The notes: generated by a model from the letters alone, not told the origin. A DNA stretch of 64,000 nucleotides from an uncultured Gemmatimonadota bacterium (GCA_903882745.1 CAIRYG010000011.1:434001-498000); one strand, 5' to 3'. Positions 27,395 through 31,850 are shown, counted from the stretch's first letter. Program-made: numbers and translations.

Positions 27395-28345
27395 ATGGTG
27401 CGCAAATTTGTCGTACTGCTGGCCGCGCTGTTGCTGGCAGGCGCCGCGTTCGTCGCCGCAACGTGGGCGCCGGATAAGACCGTCGCCGAGCTGCAACCCA
27501 AGTGGGCTCCAGCCCCGTCGCGTTTCCTCTCCGTTCACGGCATGCAGGTGCACCTCCGCGACGAAGGGCCGCGCGAGGACGCCGAGCCGATTGTGATGCT
27601 GCACGGCACCTCGTCGAGCCTGCATACGTGGGATGGATGGGCCAACGAGCTGCGCACCACACGCCGCGTTATTCGCATGGACCTTCCAGGGTTCGGTCTC
27701 ACCGGGCCTGACCCAACGAACAACTACTCGATCGGCAGCTACGTACGCTTCGTGCAGGCCGTGCTGGACTCACTTGGCGTCACCCGTGCCGTGCTGATCG
27801 GCAACTCACTCGGCGGGCAGATTGCATGGAATCTGGCGCTCTCGGACAGCGCGCGGGTCGCGAAGCTCGTGCTTGTGGATGCCGCAGGGTTTCCGGTGAA
27901 CGCGACGTCGGTGCCGATAGGGTTTCGGCTTGCGCGGAGCGCCGTGGGTGGGCGCCTTATGCGGTACATCTTACCGCGATTCATCGTGGCCTCGAGCGTT
28001 CGCAACGTCTTCGGTGATCCCGCGAAGGTCACGCCGGAGCTTATTGATCGTTACTATGATCTGACGTTGCGCGAGGGGAATCGCGCGGCTGTCGTGGCTC
28101 GGTTCGTGCAATCCAGCGCCCCGTCCGCTGTTGACCGCTTGGGCGAGCTGCGGGTCCCAACGCTCATCATCTGGGGCGAGAAGGACCGGTTGATTGCCCC
28201 CGTGACGGCGGAGCTGTTCCGACAGTCGATCCCAGGGAGCCGGACGGTACAGTTCACGGCACTTGGACACATTCCACAAGAAGAAGACCCGGTATCGACG
28301 CTACGCCTCCTGCGTCCCTTCCTGGCGGAGCACGCCACGCGGTAA
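27395..28345 (+). CDS. membrane-anchored or exported alpha/beta hydrolase
   Basis: A 316-aa alpha/beta-hydrolase. One hydrophobic N-terminal helix (VVLLAALLLAGAAFVAATW) suggests a signal anchor. The fold shows the oxyanion motif MLHGTSSS, DLPGFGLTG, and the nucleophile elbow GNSLGG with Ser138. The acid is in WGEKDRL and the catalytic His in LGHIPQEE. A cap region lies at about 170-250. Such proteins include esterases, epoxide hydrolases and haloalkane dehalogenases; no subfamily can be fixed from motifs alone. It is the last gene of the tight DUF1080-MFS-cutC run (15-bp gap). Downstream 260 bp lack a clear gene but hold a short hairpin (28508-28524). Confidence 0.85.
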   Translation: MVRKFVVLLAALLLAGAAFVAATWAPDKTVAELQPKWAPAPSRFLSVHGMQVHLRDEGPREDAEPIVMLHGTSSSLHTWDGWANELRTTRRVIRMDLPGFGLTGPDPTNNYSIGSYVRFVQAVLDSLGVTRAVLIGNSLGGQIAWNLALSDSARVAKLVLVDAAGFPVNATSVPIGFRLARSAVGGRLMRYILPRFIVASSVRNVFGDPAKVTPELIDRYYDLTLREGNRAAVVARFVQSSAPSAVDRLGELRVPTLIIWGEKDRLIAPVTAELFRQSIPGSRTVQFTALGHIPQEEDPVSTLRLLRPFLAEHATR

Positions 28346-28564
28346 AACCACGGTACCACAGCGGTTGCACCGCGGTCGTCGGTCGGCGCAGCCGCGGGCG
28401 GCGCTGAGGGGGGGGTAATCAGCCCACCCAGCACACTAAAACTGATGGTCCTAAGACTTGCGATTGGTTCGTTTCTTGCAGTACAGGTCAAGGAACGGTA
28501 CCGTGTTCGGGCGCTCAACGCCCGGGCATCAAGGGCCAATAGCCACTCAAGTCATTCATTAGCA

Positions 28565-28609
28565 ATGCTTTACAGAATCTCCACATTCGCCAAGCGTATC
28601 CGCCCGTGA
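28565..28609 (+). other. possible 14-codon leader ORF
   Basis: A short ORF (MLYRISTFAKRIRP) starts at ATG 28565 and ends in TGA at 28607-28609. Its stop overlaps the GTG start proposed for the large fusion protein by the GTGA tetranucleotide. No Shine-Dalgarno precedes it. It could couple translation of the downstream gene, which itself lacks a good ribosome site, or be chance. It is basic (Arg/Lys-rich) and has no recognisable family. Confidence 0.3.
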
Positions 28610-30669
28610 CCCCCTACCTTCAGGATGTTTTGAGGGACGGTGGGCACATTGAGGCAGCGCCTCGGGATACCGCGACCGAAACTGCCCTTCGCGTTCAGTC
28701 ACGGCATATTCACGTCCTCTACTTCTCGGACCCCCTGTGCTCCGCCTGCCGAGTCGTGGACCCGTATCTCGCGGCCATGGTCGAGCTCTACCAAGGGCTG
28801 GTGAAGATCGACGTAAAGCTCGGGGGGATGGTGAAATCGTGGGACGAGCTCCCCGCGATGGACCCGACCTGCGAAAACGGAGAGTCGGTCGCGTGCCTGT
28901 GGGAGCGCCTGAGCTCCGAGCACCGCGTGCAAATGGACAGCGCCATCTGGCGTCGCCGGCCGGTGCGCTCGTCGTACCCGGCCTCGATCGCATATCACGC
29001 AGCGATGGCCCAGGACCCAAAGAACGGCTTCCGATTCCTGCAGATTGTCCGCGACCTGCTCTTTCTCGAAGGCAAGGACATCAGCGAGGAACGCATCTTG
29101 GTGACCGCCGCGATTCGCAGCGGCCTTGATGTGCCCCGCTTTCGTCAGTCCATGCAGGATGGCTCGGCTGCCGATGCGTTCGCCCGCGACATTCGCGACG
29201 CCGAAACGTGGAAGGTCCGGCGTTTCCCAACGCTGGTCTTCATCAACGACCAAGTCGATAGCGTCACCGACACGTCGTTCTTGAACCAAACAACGGCGGA
29301 CAAAGCGCTGGACCATTGGGCTGGGATCATCAACGAGCTCACCCACCTCGACGCGCCCGACGGAAAACTGCGCGCCGACATGATTGAACTCCTCGAGGAG
29401 TTCCCGGGACTCTCGTCCAGTGAGATCTCGATCCGGTGCGGAATTCCCCTGGACCGCGCCGAGGCACGACTGGCAACCCTCTGGAAGCACGGCCGCTTGA
29501 TCCGCGAAGACCTCCCGCACGCGGTGCACTGGCGATCAAACAGCACGCCGTACCGCATTCGGCGTGATCATGCGCCAGTCCGCACCGCGGCGATCATCGG
29601 CGGCGGCATCGCGGGCTACGCCGCGGCGCGGAGCCTCGCCCAGCAAGGCGTCGAGGTTCGCGTCTTCGACCGGCAACGGCGCTCCGCCAGCCAAGGCTTT
29701 GGGTTCCTCCTGCTCAAGAATGGAATCGACGCACTAGACTCGATGGGCCTTCGTTCGGACCTCCTCCGTCGCGGGAACCCCATCAATCGCTTTCGCGCCA
29801 TCCTGCCGAACGGCGGCGAGGTCTATCAACGTCAACTCGACGACTGCCTCAGCATGCGGCGCGAAGATCTCGTAGAAATGCTCCGCGCGTCGAGCGGGGC
29901 CACGGAAATCCGGCACGATGCGGCGTTCGCGGGCTTTCTGCACGCGGACGATGATCATATTTCGGGCGTGCGGTTCGTAGACGGCACAAGCATCGAGGCG
30001 GATATCGTTCTCGCCAGCGATGGCATTCGGTCGTCCGTGCGTCACGCGCTCTTTCCGCAGCACCGCCTCGTACCGGTCGGTGAACGGGAAATCGTCGGCA
30101 TGGTCTACCTCCCCGACCTCGAAGTGCCGCAGGACGAATTCGTCAAAGTCATCGACACCGCCGCAGGAAAATGCATGGGTATGATTCCCCTCGGCGATGG
30201 GTACTACATCTGGTTCCTGCAGTTCAATCATCTGGAAGATCCCCTCGACGATGGCTCGGGCGACTCGATGCGAGCCTTCCTCAAGAAGGTCACGCGCGAC
30301 TACCCAGACGCGTTTCAAGAGTTGGTGGCCAAGAACGATTTCTCCACGAGCTTCCTCTGGATTTCGGAGCGTATGGATCTCCTCCCAGCCTTTTCCTTCG
30401 GCTCGGTAGCGCTCCTTGGCGACGCGGCACATCCGCTCCTCGCATTTACGAGCCAGGGCGCAAACTCCGCGCTTGAAGACGCGGCCTGCCTGGCCGCACT
30501 GCTGTCGCGCAGGCAAGAAGAGGAACCGACATCTGAAGTGTTCCACCGGTACTACCGCAAGCGTGAGCCGAACATCCGACGCTATATCGCTGAGGGCGAC
30601 CAGCTCGTCGAGCAGTTCATGCACCTGAATCGCGACAAGAACTTTCAGTTGCCCCTTTCGCTCCACTGA
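28606..30669 (+). CDS. DsbA-like / winged-helix / FAD monooxygenase fusion protein
   Basis: A 687-aa cytoplasmic protein with three parts. Residues about 33-235 form a DsbA/FrnE-type thioredoxin fold with a CSAC redox motif (Cys45, Cys48) and the cis-proline loop RRFPTLVF. Residues 256-309 look like a winged helix (SSSEISIRCGIPLDRAEARL, then WKHGRLI). Residues about 326-675 are a class A flavin monooxygenase, with the Rossmann GGGIAG at 332-337, ASDGIRSSVR, and GDAAHPLLAFTSQGANSALED at about 605-625. Class A enzymes hydroxylate aromatic or polyketide substrates using FAD and NAD(P)H. I know of no described protein with this exact architecture. It starts with GTG and lacks a Shine-Dalgarno; TTG at 28630 is an alternative start. 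A PLP aminotransferase follows after 2 nt. Confidence 0.8.
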   Translation: MTPYLQDVLRDGGHIEAAPRDTATETALRVQSRHIHVLYFSDPLCSACRVVDPYLAAMVELYQGLVKIDVKLGGMVKSWDELPAMDPTCENGESVACLWERLSSEHRVQMDSAIWRRRPVRSSYPASIAYHAAMAQDPKNGFRFLQIVRDLLFLEGKDISEERILVTAAIRSGLDVPRFRQSMQDGSAADAFARDIRDAETWKVRRFPTLVFINDQVDSVTDTSFLNQTTADKALDHWAGIINELTHLDAPDGKLRADMIELLEEFPGLSSSEISIRCGIPLDRAEARLATLWKHGRLIREDLPHAVHWRSNSTPYRIRRDHAPVRTAAIIGGGIAGYAAARSLAQQGVEVRVFDRQRRSASQGFGFLLLKNGIDALDSMGLRSDLLRRGNPINRFRAILPNGGEVYQRQLDDCLSMRREDLVEMLRASSGATEIRHDAAFAGFLHADDDHISGVRFVDGTSIEADIVLASDGIRSSVRHALFPQHRLVPVGEREIVGMVYLPDLEVPQDEFVKVIDTAAGKCMGMIPLGDGYYIWFLQFNHLEDPLDDGSGDSMRAFLKKVTRDYPDAFQELVAKNDFSTSFLWISERMDLLPAFSFGSVALLGDAAHPLLAFTSQGANSALEDAACLAALLSRRQEEEPTSEVFHRYYRKREPNIRRYIAEGDQLVEQFMHLNRDKNFQLPLSLH

Positions 30670-30671
30670 CC

Positions 30672-31850
30672 GTGACTTTCTTCGACAACGACAGCGTTCG
30701 CCTCGACCTGCTGCGCCAGCGCGCCTACAACTATCGCTGGGCCGTGCATCCGACGGACGTGATTCCGCTGACGGCCGCCGACCCCGACTTCGCCGTCGCG
30801 CCACAGATCACCGAGGCGTTGGTGCGGCACGCCACCGATGGGTACCACTCGTATGGTCCGCCACGCGGGCTCCCCGAGTTTCGTGAGGCGATTGCCGACT
30901 GGTACACGCGAACGAAACTGTCGCCGACGGATGCTGCGCATGTGCTGCCCGTCAACAGTGCCGCCGGCGGCCTGTTCATCGCCGCGCGGGCAATCCTCGG
31001 CCCGGGCGACAACGCGATTATTCCGGACCCGGTCGACTTCCTCTTTCGCCGCTCCATTGAAGCGGCGGGAGGGACGGTTCGTACCTGCCCGCTCCCCGAA
31101 GATTCCGCCGAGTTCGATCTCGACGCGCTCACGTCGTTAATCGACGATCGCACCCGCGCCATCTTCATCTGCAATCCGCACAACCCGCGCGGGCGTATGC
31201 TCTCCGCAGCGCACCTTCGGGCCCTCCTGACACTCGCCGAGCGGCATGGGCTCTGGCTGATCAGCGACGAGATTTGGGCTGATATCTCGTACACCACGCC
31301 ATTCGTGAGCGTTCTGGACCGCGCCCTGCCTGTGTATCCCAAGACAATCGTCGTGTCGGGGCTCTCCAAGAACTTCGCCCTTGCCGCGATGCGCATCGGC
31401 TACCTCATTGCGCGCACCGCGGAAATCACCACGCAACTATTCGAGGCGTCGCAGCACGCGAGCACGGCCGCGGGGATCCCCGTGCTCTCGCAAGTCGCAG
31501 GCACCGCGGCGCTCACCTCGTGCGATGCCTGGCTCGGTGACTTCCGCGAGCATCTGGCGGCGCGGCGCGCGCAGACGTTGGCGTTCATTGCCCAGATGCC
31601 CTTCCTGGCTCCAGTCGACACGAACGCCACCTATTTAGCGTTCCCACGGCTCGTTGGCGTACAGGATTCCGCGGAGTCGTTTGTCGCGCGGGTGCTCGCC
31701 GAGAGTCGCGTGGCGCTGGTGCCCGGTGGCCGCGACTGGTTCGAGGCCGGCTCTGAAGGGCACCTACGGATCTGCTTCGCGACCTCTGAGGAAATCCTCA
31801 AGGTTGCCTTCGATCGCATCACCTGCGCGCTGCCCAAACTCGCCATCTAA
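30672..31850 (+). CDS. class I/II PLP aminotransferase (PatB/MalY-like)
   Basis: A 392-aa fold-type I PLP enzyme. The N-terminal DVIPLTAADPDFAVAP matches the aminotransferase/C-S-lyase pattern, with YGPPRGLPEFREAIADW following. The PLP-contact segment is CNPHNPRGRM, DEIWADI lies in the middle, and the Schiff-base Lys is in VSGLSKNFALAAMRIGY. The C-terminal Arg is in HLRICFAT. MalY/PatB enzymes cleave C-S bonds; close relatives are aminotransferases. It starts with GTG 2 nt after the fusion monooxygenase, so both are made together and probably act on one substrate. Candidates include amino-acid-derived aromatic compounds. It is convergent with proline dehydrogenase. Confidence 0.88.
   Translation: MTFFDNDSVRLDLLRQRAYNYRWAVHPTDVIPLTAADPDFAVAPQITEALVRHATDGYHSYGPPRGLPEFREAIADWYTRTKLSPTDAAHVLPVNSAAGGLFIAARAILGPGDNAIIPDPVDFLFRRSIEAAGGTVRTCPLPEDSAEFDLDALTSLIDDRTRAIFICNPHNPRGRMLSAAHLRALLTLAERHGLWLISDEIWADISYTTPFVSVLDRALPVYPKTIVVSGLSKNFALAAMRIGYLIARTAEITTQLFEASQHASTAAGIPVLSQVAGTAALTSCDAWLGDFREHLAARRAQTLAFIAQMPFLAPVDTNATYLAFPRLVGVQDSAESFVARVLAESRVALVPGGRDWFEAGSEGHLRICFATSEEILKVAFDRITCALPKLAI

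Follow-up and report, generated by a model that had tools for sequence, protein, structure and literature searches.

The YjbH-type proteins (YjbH/SpxH) described so far are free-standing redox proteins and adaptors of the ClpXP protease, and many members of the family, but not all, carry a CXXC motif. The known member closest to the protein described here is GK0824 (PDB entries 6ghb/6gho), which we take to be the YjbH of Geobacillus and in which a CXXC-bearing DsbA-like domain is followed by a C-terminal domain that is presumably winged-helix-like. We know of few partners of YjbH-type proteins outside the Firmicutes. Several functions and phenotypes of Listeria YjbH, and its protein contacts, depend on the CXXC, whereas the cysteines of the B. 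subtilis and S. aureus proteins are dispensable for Spx degradation and adaptor function (PMC7253607), so a conserved CXXC is in itself no proof of redox activity. Class A flavin-dependent oxygenases work through a flavin hydroperoxide, and their typical targets are activated substrates, phenolic rings among them (PMC11110157).

Here, we describe a gene in which these two kinds of protein are joined, found in a 64,000-nucleotide stretch of DNA (the window) from an uncultured lake Gemmatimonadota bacterium (GCA_903882745.1, CAIRYG010000011.1:434001-498000; genome of 3.06 Mb in 14 contigs). Unlike the known members of YjbH/SpxH, which stand alone, the protein continues at the C-terminus of its YjbH-like part into a flavin monooxygenase. 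The gene starts with GTG and forms a single uninterrupted frame of 687 codons, and its TGA is separated by 2 nt from the GTG of a gene for a pyridoxal phosphate (PLP) enzyme (Table 1). The first-pass annotation had proposed exactly this arrangement, with DsbA-like, winged-helix and FAD monooxygenase parts in one frame and the PLP gene directly behind, and had held the key motifs to be intact. The Pfam matches, Thioredoxin_5/DSBA at residues 40-218 (108.5 bits for Thioredoxin_5 versus a cut-off of 27) and FAD_binding_3 at residues 328-660 (95.7 bits versus 22), all lie above their cut-offs. CSAC and the presumed cis-Pro are in place, as are the oxygenase motifs GGGIAG (GxGxxG, residues 332-337), SDG (DG, 471-473) and GDAAHP (GD, 605-610). 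Among the catalytic motifs of the flavin and PLP enzymes that were checked, the one exception is at Trp202 of the PLP enzyme. A literature search found no published description of a fusion between a YjbH-like protein and a flavin monooxygenase, in agreement with the earlier statement that no characterized protein has this architecture; the domain architecture is new, and the component families are known. No match to a defence system was returned by PADLOC and none to an Rfam family within the window.

Table 1. Positions of the fusion gene, its neighbor and their main features, counted from the first base of the window
Feature	Position	Strand	Details
Conserved upstream element TGGTTCGTTTCTTGCARTACAG	28465..28486	+	22 bases; sibling identical except at the R position
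Short hairpin GGGCG-CTCAA-CGCCC	about 28509-28524	+	common to window and sibling
Fusion gene, YjbH-like part (DsbA-like and winged helix) and class A FAD monooxygenase	28606..30669	+	687 aa
DsbA-like thioredoxin domain	28705..29340	+	residues 34-245; Thioredoxin_5 E 4.5e-31; GK0824 match
CSAC motif	28738-28749	+	residues 45-48
Presumed cis-Pro	29227-29229	+	within FPT, residues 207-209
Winged-helix-like segment, counterpart of the YjbH C-terminal domain	29377..29538	+	residues 258-311; 6ghb alignment
Predicted class A FAD-dependent monooxygenase domain	29587..30585	+	residues 328-660; FAD_binding_3 E 4.3e-27
PLP fold-type I enzyme	30672..31850	+	392 aa; Aminotran_1_2 E 1.3e-54; GTG start
Trp202 of the PLP enzyme	31275-31277	+	motif comparison
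Catalytic Lys233 of the PLP enzyme	31368-31370	+	in SGLSK

The likeness to YjbH extends over the whole N-terminal half. Residues 33-310 match chain B of 6ghb (GK0824) with an E-value of 8e-23 in phmmer, and a profile built from the window, a sibling species and two stand-alone Gemmatimonadota relatives aligns with the same chain from residue 20 to residue 292 of 298 (E 2.7e-52), thus taking in its C-terminal winged-helix-like domain. Taken singly, the winged helix (residues 260-296) is a weak match below the Pfam cut-off (HTH_24, E 0.078), and the segment has a helix-helix-helix-strand order in a low-confidence predicted model; AlphaFold2 with a two-sequence input gave a pLDDT of 31.5 for the fusion and 39 for its N-terminal part. 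Judged by these alignments, the N-terminal half is YjbH (SpxH)-like in both domains. Since both of its parts match the two-domain YjbH, we describe the whole as a fusion of a YjbH-like protein with a class A flavin monooxygenase. The DsbA-like domain and winged helix noted in the first pass are thus present, but their combination is not novel, since it is the two-domain architecture of YjbH/SpxH itself. No SpxH/YjbH model appeared among the NCBIfam matches, a library that may hold none.

Apart from the fusion, no Thioredoxin_5 protein was found in the genus. The other strong YjbH-like matches in the phylum are stand-alone proteins of two genomes (G346 and G081; loci L026 and L027), and in the 16 kb around each of them there is no oxygenase or PLP gene matching those of the window. 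A plasmid of Pontibacter actiniarum (L095, 2987-4759) has the gene for a YjbH-like DsbA protein 21 bases downstream of a manganese catalase gene, a further hint that such proteins are associated with oxidative-stress enzymes.

A sibling species of the same genus, a Gemmatimonadetes metagenome-assembled genome (MAG) from Lake Pavin, carries the fusion on an independent contig (JAPLKT010000050.1; L021/L022) at 84% identity and with no stop, keeping both the CSAC and the FPT motif. Its PLP gene is 90% identical and has the same TGA-CC-GTG junction, so that the fusion and its PLP neighbor, for which the first-pass annotation had proposed a search, are both conserved. Between the two species, dS of the fusion ranges from 0.7 to 2.8 by segment and dN/dS from 0.05 to 0.16 in every variable segment. 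The seam between the YjbH-like part and the oxygenase (residues 311-327) is identical despite a dS of 0.66 there, and is therefore held by selection. The recurrence of the same fusion and junction in an independent MAG, together with the low dN/dS, means that the gene is neither an assembly error nor in decay, and the sibling contig likewise rules out a frameshift. The earlier description of clean seams and an undecayed gene is borne out by these values. As evidence against a true fusion, the first pass had named an assembly error or homologues that are always separate; the sibling carries the two parts joined, and a more distant oxygenase, that of Persicobacter described below, is separate.

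The oxygenase domain is a class A flavoprotein monooxygenase with predicted catalytic activity. Its best sequence match in the PDB is TrlE (8RQH; E 3.8e-23). Like TrlE, 6-hydroxynicotinate 3-monooxygenase and HpxO, it has the GxGxxG, DG and GD motifs of single-chain FAD enzymes; it differs from TrlE-type class A enzymes in its low overall similarity, in having SQG for the usual GQG and in its N-terminal fusion. Tropolone chemistry, considered on account of the TrlE match, was rejected because the similarity is too low for such a prediction; TrlE is unrelated to TdaE (PMC11110157). In a tree with nearby relatives, which is a small sample, the oxygenases of the window, the sibling and Persicobacter form one clade (support 100/99). 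All three have SQG, and most of the sampled relatives with a readable motif have GQG.

The PLP enzyme resembles MalY/PatB lyases and class I/II aminotransferases in having PLP fold type I with the catalytic Lys (SGLSK, Lys233), Asp, Asn and a carboxylate-binding Arg (HLR, Arg366), but it lies outside both and has motifs of its own. It belongs to a clade of four (support 99/97), made up of the enzymes of the window, the sibling, Persicobacter and one further genome (G310), whose members have in common DPVDFLF, DEIWxDI and an insertion of 2 residues following VPG. Trp202 is present in all four, at a position where the sampled aminotransferases have Tyr (Tyr225 in aspartate aminotransferase) and most MalY/PatB lyases have His. 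In an unrooted tree of a small sample, the clade is split from all 17 sampled aminotransferases (100/98) and stands beside, but separate from, the MalY/PatB clade; being unrooted, the tree shows just that the enzyme falls within neither sampled group. The best NCBIfam models are those of GntC, a PLP-dependent gamma-hydroxyarginine cyclodehydratase (200 bits, far below the cut-off of 415), PRK06108 and PatB (176 bits versus 340), none of them near its cut-off. The name aminotransferase, given to the enzyme in the first pass, is supported by the PLP fold and the conserved Lys and Arg but not by its placement outside the sampled group or by Trp in place of Tyr, and on this comparison it cannot be applied with confidence.

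Genome searches extended over the phylum of the window, GTDB genomes (by a single pattern scan) and plasmid records. The scan of GTDB genome contigs returned the sibling and one weak archaeal thioredoxin match (L023). Among 72,556 plasmid records, the lowest E-value for the fusion among the matches listed was that of an oxygenase on plasmid pPP3 of Persicobacter psychrovividus (3e-20), a member of the Bacteroidota, and the best match of the PLP enzyme (4e-80, 39%) was the adjoining gene on the same plasmid. This pair (NZ_AP025295.1, AABK40_RS20425/RS20420), whose genes overlap by 8 bases, consists of the two enzymes seen in the window, in an unchanged gene order and each in the clade described above, but its oxygenase lacks the fused YjbH-like part. 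It is the one instance of the pair found outside the lineage of the window. From the shared clades and gene order, the oxygenase and the PLP enzyme appear to be an older pair of two phyla, to which the YjbH-like part was apparently added in the two Gemmatimonadota species only. In G310, the gene for the relative of the PLP enzyme (43-44%; contig 133, L080, 6110-10263) immediately follows one for a sodium:solute symporter, and a search of this 83% complete genome with the Persicobacter oxygenase gave no match; the two enzymes are therefore not an obligate pair. The same gene also precedes a tyrosine recombinase, which on visual inspection looks like an integron integrase. Viral contigs scanned for relatives of the PLP enzyme and the oxygenase contained none.

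Within the genus, the unit is found in 2 of 18 genomes. In three others (G015, G009 and G003), the genes for CutC and proline dehydrogenase (ProDH) are convergent neighbors, too close together for a gene to fit in between, and in the window and the sibling the fusion and PLP genes sit inside this junction. A junction that is empty in relatives and filled in two species indicates that the unit was probably gained once, in their common ancestor, and we regard the two-gene unit as probably horizontally acquired and mobile. An integron-cassette origin was considered because of the tyrosine recombinase next to the G310 gene, and was rejected: no attC-like end was seen by eye in the 26-bp gap that separates the PLP gene from ProDH, and no long flanking repeats were found. 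The content of this insertion site differs between the two species: an alpha/beta hydrolase gene located between the CutC and fusion genes of the window (27395-28345) is missing from the sibling contig L021. In another genome, G016, the junction is filled by about 7.4 kb of other sequence (L087, 3.2-10.6 kb), so it may be a recurrent insertion site. The 22-base element upstream of the fusion occurs once each in the window and sibling genomes (G000 and G014) and nowhere else with up to 3 mismatches; together with the short hairpin, it defines a stretch 5' of the unit that is conserved between the two species and has a putative function.

The reading we prefer, to which we give a probability of about one half, is a two-gene metabolic unit in which the oxygenase and the PLP enzyme act on one molecule and the YjbH-like half serves as a thiol-redox and docking module. 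The class A monooxygenase would use NAD(P)H and O2 to oxygenate a small molecule, probably aromatic or resembling an amino acid. The PLP enzyme would handle the substrate or the product of oxygenation by transamination or beta-elimination; the conserved pairing suggests a shared small molecule for the two enzymes. The YjbH-like half is most likely a thiol-redox and protein-docking module, whose CSAC could form a disulfide with itself or with a partner and in this way tie the activity, stability or location of the oxygenase to the thiol state of the cell. We infer a shared pathway for both enzymes, the chemistry set out here and the redox-module role. Since the CXXC is needed in Listeria but dispensable in B. 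subtilis and S. aureus, redox coupling is no more than plausible, and so is the first-pass idea of a redox-regulated oxygenase.

The foremost alternatives to this reading concern protein degradation and sulfur chemistry. In the first, the fusion could be a protease adaptor as in Bacillus, the YjbH-like half docking to ClpXP and delivering the fused oxygenase or a bound protein for degradation, in which case oxygenase levels would follow oxidative stress. The match to YjbH spans both domains of a protein with an established Spx/ClpXP role (PMC7253607), and the nearest plasmid relative of the YjbH-like part, from Spirosoma, is annotated as 'ClpXP adapter SpxH family protein'. However, YjbH acts on Spx, and the window genome has one protein that can be placed in the ArsC/Spx family at large; an adaptor tethered to one of the enzymes of a two-gene unit would be out of the ordinary, and CSAC is kept here even though the B. 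subtilis and S. aureus proteins can act as Spx adaptors without their cysteines. We consider this explanation unlikely. We also hold it improbable that the unit performs sulfur chemistry, with the PLP enzyme a C-S lyase, the oxygenase oxidizing an S-conjugate or a ring, and the thioredoxin-like domain holding or reducing the sulfur. This would supply a reason for fusing a thiol domain, the PLP clade lies outside the sampled aminotransferases, and for two of its four members the PatB C-S lyase model is the top-scoring one (194.7 and 193 bits). Yet the window's enzyme stays well under the PatB cut-off, the His of MalY/PatB is replaced by Trp, and sulfur is rarely a target of class A oxygenases. 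A more specific version, in which the flavin monooxygenase and a PLP enzyme that cleaves C-S bonds and represents a new lineage form a dedicated system for one sulfur metabolite and the YjbH-like domain carries, reduces or senses the sulfur, is very doubtful.

If the N-terminal part were instead an accidental read-through without function, only the oxygenase and the PLP enzyme would matter. The Persicobacter pair does manage without this part, and the fusion occurs in two species only, but the YjbH-like part, measured on its DsbA-like domain, is selected as strongly as the oxygenase (dN/dS 0.06 versus 0.08) and its CSAC and FPT motifs are kept, which makes read-through quite unlikely. The analogy drawn in the first pass to a kynurenine-type pathway, in which kynurenine or a similar metabolite of tryptophan would be hydroxylated by the oxygenase and transaminated by the PLP enzyme, is hardly credible: structures of KMO and KAT are among the matches, but TrlE, CtdE and 3rp8 outscore KMO and aspartate aminotransferases outscore KAT, no NCBIfam equivalog cut-off, that of KMO included, is reached by the oxygenase, and the PLP enzyme falls outside the sampled aminotransferases.

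Returning to the two-gene metabolic unit, the natural fusion indicates a partner of a YjbH-like protein, namely, a flavin oxygenase, and offers a specific example, open to experimental test, of such a module joined to a metabolic enzyme. Should the sulfur-handling reading prove true, it would represent a new route coupling thiol redox chemistry to flavin oxygenation. The fusion also draws attention to an uncharacterized pair of an oxygenase and a PLP enzyme that is present in two phyla.
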